56,810 bases of DNA from a virus: positions 1 through 56,810 of IMG/VR virus record IMGVR_UViG_3300013093_000003. The stretch is one strand, 5' to 3'. A program made the position numbers and the translations under genes. Position 1 is the first letter of the stretch, and every line of letters begins with the position of its first letter. This document shows positions 16,455-50,055 of the stretch, piece after piece. The notes below the pieces were generated by a model. That model was not told where the DNA came from. It ran no database searches and worked only from the letters and a program-made list of their open reading frames with translations.

Positions 16455-17039
16455 ATGGCTGAAGCAACTGCTGCCCAAATTCGCGCTGCCGAGCTCCTAG
16501 AGACGCTCTGGCATGACGGCGAAATCGGTGAACGAATCCAGAAGGCCGCTAAGGCCAAATGGGATGATGTTAAGACGACCGGCGAAGCATTCGCGCCGAT
16601 TGTCGCCCCGTTGAAAGCAGGCCAAGACGCGCTTGCCGCAGAGTTGAAAGCTATTCGTGAAGAACGTGCTGCCGAACGCAAGGCAAACGAAGACCGCGAA
16701 AACGAAGTTCAGAAAAAGACATTTCAGGCGTCGCTCGAAGACGCTCGAAAGAGCTACAACTTGACGGAAGAAGGCTTCGACAAGATGGTCGAACGCATGA
16801 AGACGACAAGCAACTACTCCGACCCCGAAGCCGCCGCTGCGTGGGTTGCGTCCAAGACACCACCTGTCCGCGTGGACGGGCCAACATTCGGGCCGCAGTC
16901 TTTGAACCTTTACGGTTCGCAGAAGGCAGACGAGAACATGGCCTCTCTGCACCGCGACCCACAGCGCTACATGGATGAACAGTTGAGCGAATTTGTTCGT
17001 GACCCTGATCGTTATGTCCGCGAAACGATGGGCGGCTGA
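16455..17039 (+). CDS. Scaffolding-like protein (194 aa)
   Basis: Highly charged and helical, with a predicted coiled coil around residues 55-95 (AAELKAIREERAAERKANED) and a more globular C-terminus. Its size, composition and place directly upstream of the capsid gene are those of an internal scaffold. The capsid gene originally probably followed directly; an HNH gene now lies between them. Confidence 0.65.
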   Translation: MAEATAAQIRAAELLETLWHDGEIGERIQKAAKAKWDDVKTTGEAFAPIVAPLKAGQDALAAELKAIREERAAERKANEDRENEVQKKTFQASLEDARKSYNLTEEGFDKMVERMKTTSNYSDPEAAAAWVASKTPPVRVDGPTFGPQSLNLYGSQKADENMASLHRDPQRYMDEQLSEFVRDPDRYVRETMGG

Positions 17040-17041
17040 TG

Positions 17042-17800
17042 TCAATCTTTGGCCTTAATCAGTTTGAATCCAAGCCGACTCGCGAAATCCGCGTAGTCGG
17101 TGAGGATTTTTATAGCGAATCCGACTTGATCGGAAACGCGCTGACCGGGGCCGTGGTTACTCAGGAACAGTTCAAGGTTTTCAATCCGGTTGTCGGCTCT
17201 ATTCCCGTTGACGTGGTGAACAGTCTCCCCTTTACGAAGCTCACGTCCGATATGCTGCTCCATGACATACCGATGTTCGAGAACGTTTCGGGAAGGGGCT
17301 CCGTCTACCCCAGTAATGGTGATACGCATATACCCGTGTCTAGCCAAGACAGGAACGGGAACGCGATCTTTGTTGGCAACTTGCATCTGTATTCTTCGCC
17401 GCATACTTTTACATACCGCACTACAAAGAAACTTTTTGGTGTTTATGTAGCCGTCGGTTCTTATGAATACGGGAACGTCTTTTCCGCATTGATCGCACGA
17501 TCTTTGCCAATTTTCAGGTTTAAATCTTCGGCCTTTTCCGCTGCAATCAATCGAGCAGTAGATAGGGTCTTTGCCATGCAATTTACGGTAACTTCTCAGT
17601 TCTCCTGGATTGCGGCTAAACGGTTTGCTACACTCTTTGCACTCGAAAGCGATAGGTGTGACAGTAGAGTTAGGTCGCCCATGCACTTTTTCATGAGCCC
17701 TATAGCAGTCTTTGCTGCAAAATTTTCTTCCTTCTCGGGCAAACCGATTAGTAGTTGTAAAAGTTTTGTCGCATTGCTGGCAAATAACGTCCGTCGGCAT
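17042..17800 (-). CDS. HNH homing endonuclease inserted antisense in the capsid operon
   Basis: 252 residues. Three treble-clef-like zinc segments with CxxC/CxxxC pairs (CQQCDKTF...FCSKDCYR; CKECSKPF...YCSIDCSG; CDQCGKD...LCSAVCKS) precede an HNH core near 195-215, GETVHHVNGNRADNRIENLEL. It lies between the scaffold-like stop (17039) and the capsid start (17884) on the opposite strand and leaves the capsid ribosome-binding site GAAGGAG intact. A free-standing mobile endonuclease that nicks or cuts capsid-region DNA of related phages is the usual interpretation. Confidence 0.88.
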   Translation of the reverse strand: MPTDVICQQCDKTFTTTNRFAREGRKFCSKDCYRAHEKVHGRPNSTVTPIAFECKECSKPFSRNPGELRSYRKLHGKDPIYCSIDCSGKGRRFKPENWQRSCDQCGKDVPVFIRTDGYINTKKFLCSAVCKSMRRRIQMQVANKDRVPVPVLARHGYMRITITGVDGAPSRNVLEHRYVMEQHIGRELRKGETVHHVNGNRADNRIENLELFLSNHGPGQRVSDQVGFAIKILTDYADFASRLGFKLIKAKD

Positions 17801-17883
17801 GGTTTACTCCGGTTGATTGGCACTAACTATCAATACAGGGCTCCTCACGCCTTGGCAACTGAAATATTTGAAGGAGTCGCCTA

Positions 17884-18954
17884 ATGGCATACCCAACATC
17901 ACCTGTTGGCACCTTGACCGGATCGGGCATTACGCCCTCTGGGGCGTTAGGAGCCCAACTTGCAGCCATCACACGCCGGGCTTTTTTGCCAAGCGTCTAC
18001 GTCCAAGTTTACCAGTCACACCCATTATTGAGCCTGTTTATGGCCAATGCGAAGGCCGCTCGCGGCGGTGTATCGCAGATTACCGTTCCGGTTCAGGGTT
18101 CTTCTTTCGTCTCCTTCAACTGGGGCAGCTTTGCGGGTGACTTCCCGATGCCGCAAGATCAGGCGGCAATCCAGAACGCCCAGTTCTCCTTGAAGCTCGG
18201 CATGGTGCCAATCGGATTCTTCGGCATGGAAGCAATCTTGCAGTCCTCCGAAGTTGTTATCCCCAAGCTGCGCGCCGTCATGTCTGACGCTGCCGTGGTC
18301 ATCAAGCAGGCTTACGCGCAGTCGCTCTACAGCAACAACTACGCAAACCCGCAGATGTGGGATTCTTTGACGCAGGCTTACGACGACGGCACCAACGTCC
18401 CGTCCTACGGCGGCATTGCTCGTAATCCCGGTTCGTTCTGGTCTGGCCAGCTTATCAACAACACCGGCGCAGCGGCGACAACCCGCGTTGGCATGGCGCA
18501 GCTTCTCACCCGCATTCAGGCTGGTGCAGGCGGCGAAGCTCCGGACTACGCTGTCATGAACCCTGCCAACTGGGCGGAACTGATGACCGACTTTATGTCG
18601 CTCGAAATGTTCACCACGAAGCCTCGTTCGATCTACGAAAAAGAAGATGCGGTCAATGCGGGCTTCCGCGCTATCCGCGTTCTCGATACTCCGATCTTCC
18701 CAGACCCCTTCTGCCCACTCGGAACCTGCATCGTCGTAAACAGCCGCTACACCGGCCTGTATATGTCGGAATACGCGCCTATGACCTTCTCCGGCTTTGA
18801 AAGCCAGATCGCGGTAGGCCAGATTTCAGACATTGGCGTGCTCATCTCCGCAGCCGATCTGGTTTGCGCGAAGCCTTCATCCGGTGCTCAGATCACCAAC
18901 ATCACTGGCGCCGCATGGCCCAACGTTCCGGGCACCTCGCCCGCCGTTCTTTAA
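17884..18954 (+). CDS. Major capsid protein
   Basis: 356 residues, between the scaffold-like gene and the adaptor genes. The pattern is that of HK97-fold coat proteins: an N-terminal region with PVQGSSFVSFNWGSFAG, a long helix region (IPKLRAVMSDAAVVIKQAYA), a GEAPDYAVMNPANWAEL segment and a C-terminal beta-rich domain. No protease-like region is visible. A strong GAAGGAG site precedes the ATG. Confidence 0.8.
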   Translation: MAYPTSPVGTLTGSGITPSGALGAQLAAITRRAFLPSVYVQVYQSHPLLSLFMANAKAARGGVSQITVPVQGSSFVSFNWGSFAGDFPMPQDQAAIQNAQFSLKLGMVPIGFFGMEAILQSSEVVIPKLRAVMSDAAVVIKQAYAQSLYSNNYANPQMWDSLTQAYDDGTNVPSYGGIARNPGSFWSGQLINNTGAAATTRVGMAQLLTRIQAGAGGEAPDYAVMNPANWAELMTDFMSLEMFTTKPRSIYEKEDAVNAGFRAIRVLDTPIFPDPFCPLGTCIVVNSRYTGLYMSEYAPMTFSGFESQIAVGQISDIGVLISAADLVCAKPSSGAQITNITGAAWPNVPGTSPAVL

Positions 18955-38647: not shown

Positions 38648-38959
38648 ATGACGACGCAAGAGCTGATAGCTATTCTTAAAACCCAAGATCAAAACGCGAC
38701 TGTGGTTTTGTCGGCAAAAGATTTGTATTTTAGGGACGATCATTTTTACACGGTAAACACTGTCACGGTTGAGTTAGCCGCGAAGTGCTCTAAGAATTTC
38801 TACGCAATAGCTGGAAGCCGTGACGACGTAGCAGACGCTCGACACTACTTGGCTGACGGGAAAGAAATTCTTGCAGATCAAGTCGTGGTTTTGTCGATGG
38901 TTCAAGAAGATTTCGACCCTGAAAATTTAACGCTCGTAAAATCGGTGTTATCGTTTTGA
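38648..38959 (+). CDS. Hypothetical protein (103 aa)
   Basis: Lies between RusA and the helicase. The N-terminus is TTQELIAILKTQDQNATVVL, followed by mixed alpha/beta sequence. Similar small proteins of unknown role are common in phage replication operons, but the family is not recognised. Confidence 0.6.
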   Translation: MTTQELIAILKTQDQNATVVLSAKDLYFRDDHFYTVNTVTVELAAKCSKNFYAIAGSRDDVADARHYLADGKEILADQVVVLSMVQEDFDPENLTLVKSVLSF

Positions 38960-38964
38960 CACCG

Positions 38965-41364
38965 ATGCCCACACAGTTAAGCGGAGCCGAGTTCCTCGCC
39001 TCTCGCCATCGCGCACTTCTTGCAGACGCTCCACGCGTCGGGAAACAGCAGCCTACTTACTGCAAAGTCATGACGCCTATTGGGCCATTGCCGCTCGGTA
39101 ACATTTGTGTCGGTGATAAAGTTTGTCACCCGAACGGCGGAGTTTCTACTGTCACTGGCGTGTTTCCGCAGGGTGTTCAGCCCGCATATCGAGTAACTTT
39201 TCGTGACGGAACATCTACTCTCTGCGGAATAGACCATTTATGGTCTGTGCGAGACTCCAATAGTTTGCGGAACAGTAAGCTTGGCCGTTCTCGCTATCGC
39301 ACTCTTTCGTTGAGAAGCATAACGCAAACCGGCTTGTTGCGAGCCGATGGTAAGTCGAATTTTCGCATTCCCGACCACGACTCAGTTGCGTTTACGAAAA
39401 AAGAATTGCCTGTTCCGCCCTATTTAGTCGGCGCGCTTTTAGGCGACGCGTATTTGCTGGGCGGGGTTGTCCTTAGCGTAGCCGACCGAGATTTGGATAT
39501 TTTAGACCGCGTAAAAAGTTTAATGCCGGCTTTGAACGTAAAAGAAAGCAGAACTGGCCCATCTTGTGTCGCGTATCGGCTAACCCTTCAGGACGCTCCG
39601 AGAGGTGAATTTTTTAAAATTATTAAGCAAGCAGGACTTGCGCAATATTCCGCCGACAAGTTTATACCCGACAATTATCTTATGTCATGCACCGAAGATA
39701 GAATCGAGCTGCTCCGGGGGTTGATGGACACGGATGGAAGCTGCGGAGTTTCTGGAAACGTGTCCCCAAGCGGTATTCATCGTTACACAGGCTCGGTAAC
39801 TTTTAGCAGCAGTTCTAAAACAATGGCTGTGCAAGTAGCTTGGTTAGTTCGTAGCTTGGGCGGTAAAGCGACGTTGTCGTCATTTGAGCGAGGCGAAAAA
39901 GAGGTAGACCATGTTGTGCGCATGCAAGTAGGGTTCTGTCCTTTTTATACCGCCTTTAAACGCGATAGGTGGTCTGCAATAGCAAACGCATCGGCGAAAA
40001 TCACGCGGGCTATTACGAAGATAGAATACGTTGAGAACACCGAACAGGTATGTATCAGCGTAGATGCGCCAGACGGTTTGTATTTGACCGATGATTTTAT
40101 CGTCACCCACAACACTGGCGCAGCAATTATCGCCGCCGATTACGTCCTTGCCCGCACAATTTTCGTTTTAACGACCGCTTCAGGCCGCGCCGTCTGGCGC
40201 AAAGCTTTCGCGGATTGGTCGTCGGCTGGCCGCACTGTGAAAGTGCTCGGCGTCGATAAGAACGCAGAACTGGCCGACGTGACGATTGCCTCGTGGGGTT
40301 CGGCGCAGAACATAAGCAACGCCCATACAAAGAACCGCGACTTGTTTATTCTGGACGAAGACCATTACGGCAAGTCTCCTGAAGCAAAACGCACAACGTC
40401 CGTTTACGGCAAAATGTATGACGGCGGCACGCAAATGCTGGTTGGCGGGGCTTTGCTCCAGCCCAACGTGCAAGCGTGGCATTTGACCGGCACCCCTATG
40501 CCGCACGACCCCGGCGACATGTATGTGCGTTTGCGTGCATCTGCTCCTGAAATGCTGCTGGAGAATAAAGAAAAAGGTTGGCCAGATGTGCTGCGCTTCG
40601 AAGATTTCCGTAAGCGGTATTGCATAATCCGGATGAAGAAGTTGTCGGCTTGGAACCGCATCCCTGTTGTGATTGGCGGTCAGAACGAAGCCGAGCTTAG
40701 TGCGCGCATTGAAGGGTTCTGGCTGCGCCGTTTACCATCCGACGTAGGAATGCGCCCGCCGTCTTACGAAACATTCCCGTTGCTTGTGTCTGCCACCCAG
40801 CGCAGATCCGCCAATGGCGACGTTGACATCGAGAAAGTGTTGTCCGCAGCCGAAAACGGCAACACGAAAGAACTTGAGATGGAGCTTGGCGTTTTGCGCC
40901 GTTTGACCGGCAAGATCAAAGCTGAAGCGGTCGTCGGCGCGATTGAAGAAGATTTCGACAACGGGCTCGATAAGACAGTGCTGATGTTTTGGCACACCGA
41001 AGTCGGAAACATGCTGGCCGAAGCTTTGGCCAAATTCGGGGTCGTGTTTGTTGACGGTTCGACGCCGGCACGCGAACGCGAAACCGCAGAGATTGCTTTC
41101 CGCACCGACCCGGCTAAGCGAGTGTTTATCGGCCAGATTCAAGCTTGCTGCGAAGCGATTGATTTGAGCGCAGCTTCGGTGCTGTGGTTCGTTGAAACAA
41201 GTTTCACGCCCGCCCATATGGCGCAGGCAAGCCAAAGAATTTCGAACGTCAAACAGACGCGAAATACATTCGTGCGGGTCTGCACGATTGAAGGAAGCAT
41301 TGACGATGCACTACAGGCATCGCTGATGCGGTTATGGACAGCAATTAACAAAGTCATCAAGTAG
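38965..41364 (+). CDS. SNF2-type DNA helicase interrupted by an intein
   Basis: Precursor of 799 residues from the ATG at 38965 (a TTG at 38956 is possible). N-extein residues 1-27 end in RVGK; residues 28-383 are the intein; the C-extein resumes TGAAIIAADY. Splicing restores Walker A as DAPRVGKTGAAI. Motif II is LDEDHYGKS, an Ala/Thr motif is LTGTPMP, and helicase C motifs appear as FVDGSTPARERE and AQASQRISN. The mature enzyme is 443 residues, a size usual for phage single-subunit SNF2-type helicases. It needs splicing to bind ATP. Confidence 0.9.
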   Translation: MPTQLSGAEFLASRHRALLADAPRVGKQQPTYCKVMTPIGPLPLGNICVGDKVCHPNGGVSTVTGVFPQGVQPAYRVTFRDGTSTLCGIDHLWSVRDSNSLRNSKLGRSRYRTLSLRSITQTGLLRADGKSNFRIPDHDSVAFTKKELPVPPYLVGALLGDAYLLGGVVLSVADRDLDILDRVKSLMPALNVKESRTGPSCVAYRLTLQDAPRGEFFKIIKQAGLAQYSADKFIPDNYLMSCTEDRIELLRGLMDTDGSCGVSGNVSPSGIHRYTGSVTFSSSSKTMAVQVAWLVRSLGGKATLSSFERGEKEVDHVVRMQVGFCPFYTAFKRDRWSAIANASAKITRAITKIEYVENTEQVCISVDAPDGLYLTDDFIVTHNTGAAIIAADYVLARTIFVLTTASGRAVWRKAFADWSSAGRTVKVLGVDKNAELADVTIASWGSAQNISNAHTKNRDLFILDEDHYGKSPEAKRTTSVYGKMYDGGTQMLVGGALLQPNVQAWHLTGTPMPHDPGDMYVRLRASAPEMLLENKEKGWPDVLRFEDFRKRYCIIRMKKLSAWNRIPVVIGGQNEAELSARIEGFWLRRLPSDVGMRPPSYETFPLLVSATQRRSANGDVDIEKVLSAAENGNTKELEMELGVLRRLTGKIKAEAVVGAIEEDFDNGLDKTVLMFWHTEVGNMLAEALAKFGVVFVDGSTPARERETAEIAFRTDPAKRVFIGQIQACCEAIDLSAASVLWFVETSFTPAHMAQASQRISNVKQTRNTFVRVCTIEGSIDDALQASLMRLWTAINKVIK
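39046..40113 (+). other. Intein with LAGLIDADG homing endonuclease, class 3 signature
   Basis: 356 residues, inserted between Lys and Thr of the helicase Walker A. It starts QQPTYCKV, so the first residue is Gln, not a nucleophile, and ends FIVTHN with Thr at +1. Class 3 markers are all present: Trp93 in HLW (block B), Cys363 in QVCISV (block F position 4) and Thr381 just before His-Asn (block G). The two LAGLIDADG-type motifs are YLVGALLGDAYLLG (from residue 153) and ELLRGLMDTDGS (from 248). Numbering is from the ATG at 38965. Confidence 0.93.
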
Positions 41365-43914: not shown

Positions 43915-44544
43915 ATGGCTATGAAGCGCAGTGAAGATTTCAAAACCCCAATGGGCCGTCTCGCTTATGCCCAGTCTCTCTACAAGCCGCGCGCGGCTGA
44001 AGCAGGCGGCAAAGAGAAATACGGCTGCACCCTGATTTTCAATAAGGCCGACCGTGCCGCGCTGGAAAAGGTTGTAGCGCAGGTCATTACCGACGAATGG
44101 GGCGTCAAAGGCATTGAGCGTGCAAAGGCTGGCCTTATCAAGTCGCCGTTCCTTGCGGGTGACGGCAAGGAAGCGCGTAATAAGACGACGGGCGAACTGC
44201 ATCCCGGCATGGGGCCGGACGTGTTCTTTATCCGGTGCCAAGCCAATGCTGACCGCCCACCGGCTGTTCGCTGGAAGTCGCCAAACATTCAGGAAACCGA
44301 AGCAACGGTCTATTCGGGCTGTTACGGCAAAGCGGTTGTCAACGTGTTCGCGTGGCACAACGACAAGAACGGCGACGGCGTGTCCTTTGGTTTGGCTATG
44401 TTTCAAAAGATGGGCGAGGGTGAACGTCTTGGCGGCTCTGGTGGTGTTGACGTAGACAGGCACTTTGAGAAGATCGAAGATGCGGGCGAAGCGCCGGAGT
44501 CCACAAAGGGCGGTGCTGGCGCCGGCGGATTGTTCGGAGAGTAG
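43915..44544 (+). CDS. DUF2815 ssDNA-binding protein
   Basis: 209 residues. The N-terminus TPMGRLAYAQSLYKPRA and the later GKAVVNVFAWHNDKNGDGVSFGL segment match DUF2815, an OB-fold family analogous to T7 gp2.5. The C-terminus is acidic then Gly-rich and ends GGLFGE, similar to the flexible tips by which such proteins bind partners. Directly follows the DUF2800 nuclease-like gene. Confidence 0.85.
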   Translation: MAMKRSEDFKTPMGRLAYAQSLYKPRAAEAGGKEKYGCTLIFNKADRAALEKVVAQVITDEWGVKGIERAKAGLIKSPFLAGDGKEARNKTTGELHPGMGPDVFFIRCQANADRPPAVRWKSPNIQETEATVYSGCYGKAVVNVFAWHNDKNGDGVSFGLAMFQKMGEGERLGGSGGVDVDRHFEKIEDAGEAPESTKGGAGAGGLFGE

Positions 44545-45438: not shown

Positions 45439-45664
45439 ATGAAACCGACACTTTCCAACTGCACGATTGGCCAATGCCGCTGGCCGCTGGCCGCTTTGGG
45501 ATACTGAATCTTTCCCGACCGTTGACGAAGCATTTGTTTGCGGAGCACCAGCGCGCAAGAGCTATTGCGACACGCATCACAAGCTGGCTTACGAACCTGC
45601 GCCAAAAGTTTATGCGCCGCGCAAACCGAAGCAAGAGGCACCCCATGACAGAATCAACTTTTGA
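45439..45664 (+). pseudogene. GcrA C-terminal (sigma-binding) domain-like gene, frameshifted
   Basis: Frame 1 from the ATG at 45439 reads MKPTLSNCTIGQCRWPL and stops at 45507. A second frame carries WDTESFPTVDEAFVCGAPAR and KSYCDTHHKLAYEP to 45664. They join perfectly if one copy of the tandem heptamer CCGCTGG (45477-45483 / 45484-45490) is removed. The repaired 72-residue protein has the CRWP...FxCG...YCxxHxxLAY zinc-ligand pattern of the GcrA C-terminal domain, which binds sigma-70 in Caulobacter, without the DNA-binding part. Alternatives are sequencing error, phase variation or programmed frameshift. Confidence 0.75.
45477..45495 (+). repeat. 7-bp tandem duplication CCGCTGG
   Basis: Two full copies (45477-45483 and 45484-45490) plus CCGCT. 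The second copy shifts the reading frame of the GcrA-like gene by +1. Confidence 0.9.
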
Positions 45665-45893
45665 TGCGGTTTTCACGGCTGCAAAGCGCCACGGCCTGAA
45701 GCTAAATAACTTCTTCCAGCTCGGCGATATGTTCCGCGCGAACTGGCGCTTGGGCGACGACAAGAACACGTTTTGCAGCGAGTTTATAGACAACGTGGTG
45801 CCGTTCCGGGCTTTAGAAGAATCTTTGGCTGTTGCGATACGCACCATGCCGAAGCCGGAACCTGAATCCGCAGACTTAGACCTATTTGATTAA
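45645..45893 (+). CDS. Hypothetical protein ending DLDLFD (82 aa)
   Basis: Start chosen at the ATG at 45645, within the 3' end of the GcrA-like frame; the longer open frame upstream is the shadow of that gene. Residues include FDAVFTAAKRHGLKLNNFFQ and FCSEFIDNVVPFRALEESLA. The C-terminal ADLDLFD strongly resembles the bacterial clamp-binding consensus QL(S/D)LF. Function unknown. Confidence 0.65.
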   Translation: MTESTFDAVFTAAKRHGLKLNNFFQLGDMFRANWRLGDDKNTFCSEFIDNVVPFRALEESLAVAIRTMPKPEPESADLDLFD

Positions 45894-46404: not shown

Positions 46405-46739
46405 AACGAGTTATCATTGAAAGCCCCTACGCGGGGACGCCCGAACAGATCAAGATAAACGTGCGATATGCGCGGGCTTGCGTGCTCGACAGCTTAATGC
46501 GCGGCGAAGCTCCGATTGCGTCCCATTTGCTTTACACGCAAGAAGGCATCTTGCGTGATGAGATACCGGGCGATCGGCAGATGGGAATGGACGCTGGCCA
46601 CGCTTGGTTAATCGGCTGCGACTTAGTGGCTGTCTATACGGATTTGGGCTTATCTATGGGTATGGTCGTAGGCGCTTCTCGTGCGAGAGACGCTGGCAAA
46701 CCTATAGAGATGAGAACTTTAGCGGGGTGGGGAGAATGA
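46401..46739 (+). CDS. Nucleoside deoxyribosyltransferase-like (DUF7768/DUF4406-type) protein
   Basis: 112 residues. The pattern RVIIESPYAGTPEQIKINVR, YARACVLDSLMRGEAPIASH, AGHAWLIGCDLVAVYTDLG and GMVVGASRARDAGKPIEMRT is that of small Rossmann-like proteins related to nucleoside 2-deoxyribosyltransferases. It may act on nucleotides or nucleoside precursors. Overlaps the methyltransferase start. Confidence 0.65.
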   Translation: MKRVIIESPYAGTPEQIKINVRYARACVLDSLMRGEAPIASHLLYTQEGILRDEIPGDRQMGMDAGHAWLIGCDLVAVYTDLGLSMGMVVGASRARDAGKPIEMRTLAGWGE

Positions 46740-47842
46740 CAGTTCGTTTGGTTTGCGGCGACAGCCGTTTTGTTTTGAGCATGGAACCAGACAACTCGGT
46801 TGATTCCGTCGTCACTGACCCGCCCTATGCGCTGGAAAGCGTCGTCAAGCGCTTCGGCGGTGACGGAGCTGCGCCTGCAAAGGGTTACGGCAAGACCGGC
46901 GCGTATCAGCGCGCCAGTTCCGGCTTTATGGGTCAGAAGTGGGATACCGGAGAAACGGCATTTGACCCGCTGTTCTGGGTCGAAGTCATGCGCGTGTTGA
47001 AGCCGGGCGGTCATGTCTTGGCGTTCTCTGGCTCGCGCACTTATCATAGACTTGCTTCGGCCATTGACGACGCGGGGCTTGAAATTCGCGACCAGATCAT
47101 GTGGCTTTACGGTTCAGGGTTCCCGAAATCGCATGACGCTGGCGACGGGTGGGGCACCGCGTTAAAGCCCGCCCACGAACCGATTGTTGTCGCCCGTAAG
47201 CCGTTAGTTGGCACCGTGGCGAAGAACATGGAAGCATGGGGCGTCGGGGCTGTAAATATTGACGGGTGCAGGGTTGGCACCGAAATCGCAGGCTGCGGCG
47301 GAGGTGCAGCCGGAGGCAACACTTGGAACGAAAATAACAGCGGTCTTTGTAAATCCGGTGAAGCGCGTCCCGTAGTTGGACGTTGGCCCGCGAATGTTAT
47401 CCACGACGGCAGCGCGGAAGTTCTTGAAGGGTTTCCGCATTCAAAAAGCGGAGCGCCGGGGGTTCGGCGTAAGCCTCACGAAACAGGGTCGATGGCTGGA
47501 CGTCTCGGCCTGACTGGCGACGTAGAAACAGGCTACGGCGACGAAGGCAGCGCGGCTCGGTTTTTCTATTGCGCCAAGGCCAGCAAGGCAGACCGCAACC
47601 AAGGCGCGACCAACTCTCACCCCACAGTCAAACCGACCGACCTGATGCGCTACCTCTGCCGCCTCGTGACGCCACCAAACGGCATCGTCCTTGACCCGTT
47701 CATGGGTTCGGGCTCGACCGGACGGGGTGCGGTTCTGGAAGGGTTCCGGTTCTTTGGAATCGAAATGAGCGAAGATTACATGGCCATTGCGAAGGCACGC
47801 ATTGACGCGGCAAAACCCGAATTAGAAGGATTGTTTGACTGA
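46736..47842 (+). CDS. DNA methyltransferase (N6-adenine or N4-cytosine, DPPY type)
   Basis: 368 residues. Motif IV DPPY is at 28-31 and motif I DPFMGSG at 320-326, so the order (IV before I) is that of beta-class enzymes such as CcrM. A long variable region (about 150-290) probably holds the target-recognition domain. The C-terminus is EGLFD. The start overlaps the upstream stop (GAATGAC) and the stop overlaps the polymerase start. It could protect phage DNA from restriction or alter host methylation signals; the recognition site cannot be read from sequence. Confidence 0.88.
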   Translation: MTVRLVCGDSRFVLSMEPDNSVDSVVTDPPYALESVVKRFGGDGAAPAKGYGKTGAYQRASSGFMGQKWDTGETAFDPLFWVEVMRVLKPGGHVLAFSGSRTYHRLASAIDDAGLEIRDQIMWLYGSGFPKSHDAGDGWGTALKPAHEPIVVARKPLVGTVAKNMEAWGVGAVNIDGCRVGTEIAGCGGGAAGGNTWNENNSGLCKSGEARPVVGRWPANVIHDGSAEVLEGFPHSKSGAPGVRRKPHETGSMAGRLGLTGDVETGYGDEGSAARFFYCAKASKADRNQGATNSHPTVKPTDLMRYLCRLVTPPNGIVLDPFMGSGSTGRGAVLEGFRFFGIEMSEDYMAIAKARIDAAKPELEGLFD

Positions 47843-50055
47843 TGACTCTTTCGTGGGATTGGGAAACAAGAAGTCCCGTAAACCTTCCGACGCATGGCCC
47901 TTATGTCTACGCCATGCACCCCGACACTGACGCTCTGTTGGCCTCTTACAAATTAAAATGGAATGACGAGGCCAAACATCCGCCCGAAATTCAGGCTTGG
48001 GTGAGCGCAGGCGGAGCCCTTAACAAACTGATGCGCTGGAAAAGGGGTGAACCCTGTCCAGCGCATGTTCGTGCTTACATCGAAGCGGGCGGGCAAGTAT
48101 CGGCGCACAACGCCGCGTTTGAACGCCTTATCTGGTGGCATACCATGGTTCCAAAGCACAAGTGGCCAAAGCCGCGCATGGAGCAATTCAGATGCACGGC
48201 GGTTACGGCTGCGGCTATGTCTTTGCCTAGAAGTCTCGAAAGGCTGGGAGACGCGCTCGACTTATCTATAAAGAAAGATAAGCGCGGGTCAGACCTTATG
48301 AAGATACACTCCATTCCGATTGGCTTTGACGAAACAGGAAAAGCGATCTGGCACCCAAAAGCCGACGACCCGGAATCGTTGGAGCTTTATCATCAGTATT
48401 GCGATTCAGACGTTCTTTCGGAAGAAGAAGCCGACAGCCGTCTCATTCCTTTATCCGATGACGAGATGAAGGTTTACTGGCTTAACGAGACGATCAATGA
48501 CCGTGGCCTTCGTATAGATACCGTGTCGGCCACGGCGGCTTTACATCTGATTGACGAGGCAAAGAGGCTTATCAACGAAGAATTGACAACAGTTACAGAC
48601 AAAGCGGCGACGGCTGTCACGCAAGCTGCCAAGTTAAAAAAATGGGCGGAATCGCAAGGTGTGCTGATGCCGTCGATGGATAAAGACGACGTGAACGATT
48701 TCCTTCACGACTGCGATGATCTGCCAGATCGGGTCAGACGCGCGTTGGAGCTTCGGCAAGAAGGCGCAAAACCTTCGGTCGATAAAATATCTGCGATGAT
48801 GAAGCGTGTCGATTCCGATGGCCGTGCGCGCGGGGTTTATCTGCACAACGGCGCTGGCCAAACAGGGCGATTCAGTTCTCGCGGCGTTCAAGCGCACAAC
48901 ATGCCGAAATACCGCAAGATATTCGAAGACGCGAAAATATCGCAGTCAGAGCTATTCGACACAATACGAAGCGGCGACCCGAATATGCTGACCTTTATGT
49001 ATGGCGCCGACTTAGGCCGTCCCCTGCATCTGTTGTCTGATGCGGTTCGTGGTTTCATCTGGGCTGCGCCGGGGTATGACTTTGTGTGCGCCGATTATTC
49101 ATCTATTGAAGGCCGATTGGCTGCATGGTTTGCGGGCGAAGAATGGCTGCTGGAAGCGTTCCGGTCGCTTGATCGTGGCGAAGGATTCGGCATCTACGAA
49201 TTGGCTGCTGCTGGTATCTATAACATACCTGTAGAAACTGTTGACAAGAAAAAACGAGCCTCTGGTAAAGTGGCGACTCTCGCTCTTGGCTACCAAGGCG
49301 GAGCTGGCGCACTGGCGAAGATGGCCAGACAAAACGGCATAAAGCTTCCGACCGTTTTTGATGCTCTTTGGGAAAGTGTTTCGCCAGAGCGTAGAACCGC
49401 TGCCGAAAAAAGATTTGAGGAGCGGTTGGAAAAGCACGACGCTTTGGCCATGGCACTCGGTAAGCAGGGCTGGATTGCTGCCGAGCTTATCAAAGTCGGT
49501 TGGCGGGCCAAGCACCCGAAAATAGTGGAGTTGTGGGGTAAGCTGGAAGATGCCGCAATAGACGCTGTGAACAACCCCGGCTCTGTTGTAAACGTCGTCG
49601 GGGCTAGATACACGGTCGCGCATGGTTTTCTGTGGTGCCGCTTGCCTTCGGGCCGTTGTCTCGCCTACGGTTCTCCGAAGATGGGGGAAGTCGAAGCGCC
49701 GTGGGCGGATAAGACAGTGGAGCCCGCAAAGAGAGAAAAGAAGCTATCTTTGACTGTTCGCGGCGTTGACGCTGTAAGCGAGAAGTGGATAAGGTTTCCG
49801 ACATACGGCGGCAGTCTTGCGAACAATCTCATTCAGGGGTCTGCGCGCGATATTCTAACGCACGGGATGTTCAGTTCAGAAAAAGCAGGATACCCCGTTG
49901 TGCTGCACACGCACGATGAAATGGCCGCAGAAGTCCCGCACGGTTTTGGTTCAGTGGAAGAATACCAAAACATCTTATCGGTCATGCCGGACTGGGCAAA
50001 GACGCTACCTATGACGGCGAGCGGTTGGCGCGGTAAACGATACAGAAAAGATTAA
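47842..50055 (+). CDS. Family A DNA polymerase
   Basis: 737 residues. The 3'-5' exonuclease begins at once with Asp6 and Glu8 in SWDWETRS; HNAAFERLIWW provides ExoII. Polymerase motif A is DYSSIEGRLAAWFAGE (Asp418), motif B is KVATLALGYQGG (from 476), and motif C is HTHDE with Asp692-Glu693. No 5' nuclease domain. It would replicate the phage genome with the prim-pol/helicase and DUF2815 protein. The ATG overlaps the methyltransferase stop (TGATG). Confidence 0.95.
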   Translation: MTLSWDWETRSPVNLPTHGPYVYAMHPDTDALLASYKLKWNDEAKHPPEIQAWVSAGGALNKLMRWKRGEPCPAHVRAYIEAGGQVSAHNAAFERLIWWHTMVPKHKWPKPRMEQFRCTAVTAAAMSLPRSLERLGDALDLSIKKDKRGSDLMKIHSIPIGFDETGKAIWHPKADDPESLELYHQYCDSDVLSEEEADSRLIPLSDDEMKVYWLNETINDRGLRIDTVSATAALHLIDEAKRLINEELTTVTDKAATAVTQAAKLKKWAESQGVLMPSMDKDDVNDFLHDCDDLPDRVRRALELRQEGAKPSVDKISAMMKRVDSDGRARGVYLHNGAGQTGRFSSRGVQAHNMPKYRKIFEDAKISQSELFDTIRSGDPNMLTFMYGADLGRPLHLLSDAVRGFIWAAPGYDFVCADYSSIEGRLAAWFAGEEWLLEAFRSLDRGEGFGIYELAAAGIYNIPVETVDKKKRASGKVATLALGYQGGAGALAKMARQNGIKLPTVFDALWESVSPERRTAAEKRFEERLEKHDALAMALGKQGWIAAELIKVGWRAKHPKIVELWGKLEDAAIDAVNNPGSVVNVVGARYTVAHGFLWCRLPSGRCLAYGSPKMGEVEAPWADKTVEPAKREKKLSLTVRGVDAVSEKWIRFPTYGGSLANNLIQGSARDILTHGMFSSEKAGYPVVLHTHDEMAAEVPHGFGSVEEYQNILSVMPDWAKTLPMTASGWRGKRYRKD

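Follow-up and report, generated by a model that had tools for sequence, protein, structure and literature searches.

A putative phage gcrA gene confined to the sigma-interacting domain and probably inactivated by a 7-bp tandem duplication

The GcrA protein of Caulobacter crescentus (PF07750; PDB 5yix, 7ye1) binds methylated DNA through residues 1–45, while its C-terminal sigma-interacting domain (SID; residues 108–173) has sigma domain 2 as its binding partner (PMC7403470). The SID displays the pattern CRWP ... FxCG ... YCxxH, and its Cys/His set is suspected of binding metal. Phage-encoded GcrA has been treated as homologous to the entire regulator (PMC3556154, PMC9437464, PMC7987155); in such full-length proteins the DNA-binding domain is retained and the frame is open. 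A partial search of mainly open-access literature found no description of GcrA forms consisting of the SID only.

We analysed such a locus in a 56.8-kb virus record (the whole 56,810-nucleotide stretch is referred to here as the window), where it occupies positions 45439–45664 of the plus strand. The gene sits in a replication-type operon with the order DUF2800/exonuclease, Enc34-type ssDNA-binding protein, HNH/AP2 endonuclease, GapR, SID, small genes, N6/N4 methyltransferase and PolA. The relevant features are as follows.

43915–44544 (+): Enc34-type ssDNA-binding protein gene (PF10991, E 5e-23), used as the query for related phage modules
45198–45428 (+): GapR-like DNA-binding protein gene (PF10073, E 3.4e-19), directly 5' of the SID gene
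45439–45507 (+): head frame of the SID-only gcrA gene, with ATG, 22 codons MKPTLSNCTIGQCRWPLAALGY and TGA at 45505–45507 (sequence and translation)
45443–45664 (+): tail frame of this gene, which encodes the greater part of the GcrA SID (PF07750 match and translation)
45476–45495 (+): period-7 tract GCCGCTG-GCCGCTG-GCCGCT, 20 nt, the point of reading-frame change (window-wide period-7 scan)
45645–45893 (+): small gene that starts before the tail frame has ended (sequence), with a homologue directly after GapR in related phage L002
46096–46404 (+): phrog_8252 gene, a homologue of which follows full-length gcrA in related phages L004 and L024
46736–47842 (+): N6/N4 DNA methyltransferase gene (PF01555, E 3e-28), its start chosen inside a TTG-initiated ORF at 46604–47842
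47842–50055 (+): family A DNA polymerase gene (PF00476, E 6e-16), the end of the module

The head frame begins 10 nt beyond the stop of the gapR-like gene, at an ATG (45439) preceded by a GAGGA ribosome-binding site, such that the SID has a short ORF and a start signal of its own. The frame across the SID is not intact, and changes within 45476–45495. The tail frame (GRWPLWDTESFPTVDEAFVCGAPARKSYCDTHHKLAYEPAPKVYAPRKPKQEAPHDRINF) runs without interruption through 45443–45661 to its stop at 45662–45664 and keeps the motif RWP..FVCGAP..YCDTHHKLAY; its earliest in-frame start is a TTG at 45467, where no ribosome-binding site was seen. Codon usage 3' of the tract favours the tail frame (+4.5 versus −16.8 and −2.9), the head being too short to judge. 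Because the head encodes just 22 residues and the tail lacks both a good start and the first conserved Cys, neither product should be functional, judging from the two translations. An AlphaFold2 model of the tail frame had a mean pLDDT of 57.

The period-7 tract is the sole run of at least 20 nt in the 56.8-kb window, and none arose in 60 first-order Markov shuffles; runs of only 14 nt are at chance level (5 observed, 4 expected). An earlier note on this DNA had described a gene broken at this locus by a 7-bp tandem duplication, and the sequence, coordinates and frame break proved to be as claimed in the translations of both frames. There is indeed a single duplication at the frame change, although the repeat extends over 45476–45495 and not 45477–45495, and the calculation that removal of one unit restores a protein of 72 residues is correct.

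Assignment of the gene rests on profile searches in which each frame was run alone, not as a joined head and tail protein. The tail frame matched PF07750 with E values of 6.3e-6 (genome profile search) and 6.2e-5 (hmmscan) over profile positions 98–148 of 155, a match confined to the SID, with a sub-threshold score of 22–24 bits against the curated cut-off of 26.9; it also matched phrog_12262 (3e-4). The similarity to GcrA for which the earlier note had proposed a profile search is thus borne out, though below the cut-off. When the window tail is aligned with SIDs from phages and Caulobacter, no sequence departs at the second Cys, the Tyr-Cys pair or the His. Only the window tail lacks the first Cys (of CRWP), having a Gly there as a result of the frame change. 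A profile search revealed no GcrA DNA-binding domain upstream of the SID or elsewhere in the record, in agreement with the earlier note, and lacking this N-terminal methylated-DNA-binding domain the gene is filed as a GcrA SID rather than a full GcrA. Compared with Caulobacter crescentus GcrA, then, it shares the C-terminal SID pattern but has neither the N-terminal domain nor the linker, and is split in two frames. No close relatives of the tail protein were found in the viral contigs or isolated phages searched. A PDB sequence search with the tail returned one weak match, to MMP-23 (E 0.06), which was judged to be due to chance.

Several other features of the window were recorded. A helicase ORF (Helicase_C; 38956–41364, +) seems to be interrupted by an intein-like insertion (C..KV..PIGPLPLGN...VTHNT), which weakly matches LAGLIDADG_3 and falls within the GK/T of Walker A. 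An HNH-type endonuclease ORF (17042–17800, −) lies inside a plus-strand ORF (17039–17884) just 5' of a putative capsid gene, and looks like a mobile element inserted into or beside a structural gene. Near the left end of the record is a serine recombinase/resolvase-like ORF (1717–2265, −; MRYGYARVSSTGQNLDEQ...).

The Enc34-type ssDNA-binding protein is common to the window, viral contigs and one Bosea genome, which was the one genome found in a scan for relatives of the module. Related phages carry a full-length gcrA within a GapR/methyltransferase/polymerase module, and in four of them (L004, L008, L009 and L024) GapR is followed by this gene at the corresponding place. The window gene is likewise phage-borne, as are these and the phiCbK gp222 group (PMC3556154), and occupies the same position of the same module after GapR, but has neither the DNA-binding domain nor the open frame of these homologues. 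The two closest phages to the window by ssDNA-binding protein, L002 and L003, have no gcrA at that place; the homologue of the 45645–45893 gene in L002 matches at 40% over 35 aa (tblastn, E 1.5e-5). In Agrobacterium phage 7-7-1 (L020 1878–2653, +), DUF2312/GapR is directly followed by an unannotated gcrA-like gene (PF07750, 25.5 bits), so that the GapR–GcrA pairing also occurs in an isolated phage. A GcrA-like protein in L032 (8409–9113, +) carries a pair of DNA-binding-like repeats at its N terminus, and its SID has a degraded CRWP motif (CRAI).

A SID-motif pattern scan of viral contigs returned at least 120 contigs, with 121 SID ORFs among the matches listed, and in 109 of these 121 the SID and the DNA-binding domain share one ORF. 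The other 12 listed comprise four ORFs cut by contig ends (L119, L045, L153 and L113), one second frame in contig L058, where a full gene is present too, two frame-split full genes (L065 and L089) and five intact SID-only genes (L069, L134, L132, L136 and L073). The SID-only phage gene P0003 is likewise intact. In L065 (9880–10480, −) one frame encodes the DNA-binding domain and another the SID, with a ten-C run at the junction, in the polyproline linker, reflecting either a homopolymer error or a switchable tract; in L089 (1380–1900, +) the break falls within the DNA-binding domain. The clearest SID-only gene, in L069, encodes 94 aa (PF07750, 65 bits) in the order GapR-MTase-SID-PolA, with a strong Shine-Dalgarno sequence and an ATGA overlap with the upstream methyltransferase gene. 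Comparison with its sister in L134 gives dN 0.133 and dS 0.409 (dN/dS ~0.33; Fisher p 0.001, for one sequence pair only); synonymous changes are enriched, showing that this pair is under purifying selection. Rhizobium phages RHph_TM3_14A, TM27A, TM27B and TM29 carry an annotated SID-only CDS of 71 aa, which has no close relatives beyond its own group in the viral contigs.

These intact genes indicate that the gene type is real. Among 249 genomes of the Bosea order, the SID matches listed all belong to open frames 163 aa or longer, which argues that SID-only genes are not common in hosts and look like a phage habit. The window gene resembles those of L069/L134, L132, L136, L073 and the Rhizobium phages in having a SID without a DNA-binding domain, and shares with L069/L134 an MK-(P/T)-L... 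start, the same type of start signal and the GapR/MTase/PolA setting; the others, however, have intact frames and are just distantly similar to the window protein. The search for an intact gene in related phages that the earlier note had suggested therefore yields intact SID-only relatives but no close intact homologue of the window gene itself among viral contigs and isolated phages. On these comparisons, SID-only GcrA appears to be a recurring phage variant, of which the window copy would be a broken representative.

We conclude that 45439–45664 is probably a phage SID-only gcrA gene in a replication-type operon, inactivated by a slippage-type 7-bp tandem duplication. This is supported by the frame break at a unique tract, the SID-confined PF07750 match, the GAGGA start after gapR and the full-length gcrA of related modules, as well as by the five intact SID-only genes, the selection on L069/L134, the 71-aa Rhizobium phage genes and the binding of the SID to sigma domain 2 (PMC7403470). 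Weighing against it are the sub-cut-off match, the lack of a close intact homologue, the absence of gcrA from L002 and L003 and the possibility of assembly error. That the open reading frame might be unrelated to GcrA, a chance Cys/His-rich product, seems highly improbable: the ORF is short and its score falls under the Pfam cut-off, but the match lies in the right part of the profile, the first Cys, lost through the frame change, is the only invariant position missing, the gene adjoins GapR in a module that in relatives contains gcrA, and the intact SID-only P0003 scores equally low (23.3 bits). It is also very improbable that programmed or leaky +1 frameshifting joins the frames, with the longer SID-only protein still made. 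A shift at any point of the frame overlap (45443–45504) would suffice, but neither a known shift site nor a stimulator was evident, and no related phage gene among the matches listed uses two frames at this point.

With no stop in the tail frame and the motif conserved, the break should be a recent event, a variant within the population or an error. That the duplication arose in assembly or sequencing, or reflects a minority variant in the consensus while most virions carry the intact gene, is unlikely, though more probable than the other alternatives: the tail looks as if broken very recently or never, the record is of metagenome type, and frame-split phage gcrA genes occur in about 2 of the 120 contigs listed (L065 and L089), a base rate that covers errors and real breaks alike. 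Against this, a 7-bp duplication in a 20-nt tract should be spannable by ordinary reads, and would be typical of replication slippage and atypical of assembly error. The earlier note had also proposed phase variation, in which the SID-only protein would be switched by gain and loss of 7-bp units. The idea is suggested by the tract itself, a perfect tandem repeat that coincides with the frame change and is the only one of its kind in the window, but it is improbable. The tract has fewer than three copies, and the codons of CRWP-I and CRWP-L often give a 13-nt period-7 run anyway (e.g. GCCGATGGCCGAT), from which a 7-bp duplication by slippage could naturally start. Moreover, no tract comparable to 20 nt was present in the phage gcrA genes of the 120 viral contigs listed, where the longest period-7 run was 14 nt, and none is found in L069 or L134; since the pattern used in the SID scan begins 3' of the tract, genes with a longer tract would have stayed in the scan. 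This favours a one-off duplication over a maintained phase-variable tract. Recent loss, another proposal of the earlier note, fits the broken gene best, together with a within-population variant, and the window copy is most likely a recently broken gene.

By analogy with the GcrA SID, an intact SID-only protein would be expected to target domain 2 of host sigma-70, while bringing no methylated-DNA specificity of its own. It might then compete with host GcrA for sigma-70, or work at phage promoters as a general sigma-2 cofactor; the role as sigma-70 decoy or adaptor that the earlier note suggested would be plausible. Crl and RbpA, also small sigma domain 2 cofactors, offer a functional analogy only, with no sequence relation claimed (PMC7403470). 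More speculatively, and with some doubt, alphaproteobacterial phages may have repeatedly evolved stand-alone GcrA SIDs as anti-GcrA sigma-70 decoys beside GapR and a DNA methyltransferase, uncoupling host methylation-dependent cell-cycle transcription, with the window gene being switched off or lost. By itself the broken window copy is chiefly an annotation note. SID-only proteins as a group, though, would separate sigma binding from methyl-DNA recognition, and may thereby provide ready-made, genetically testable probes of GcrA action and of the reprogramming of the host cell cycle by phages.
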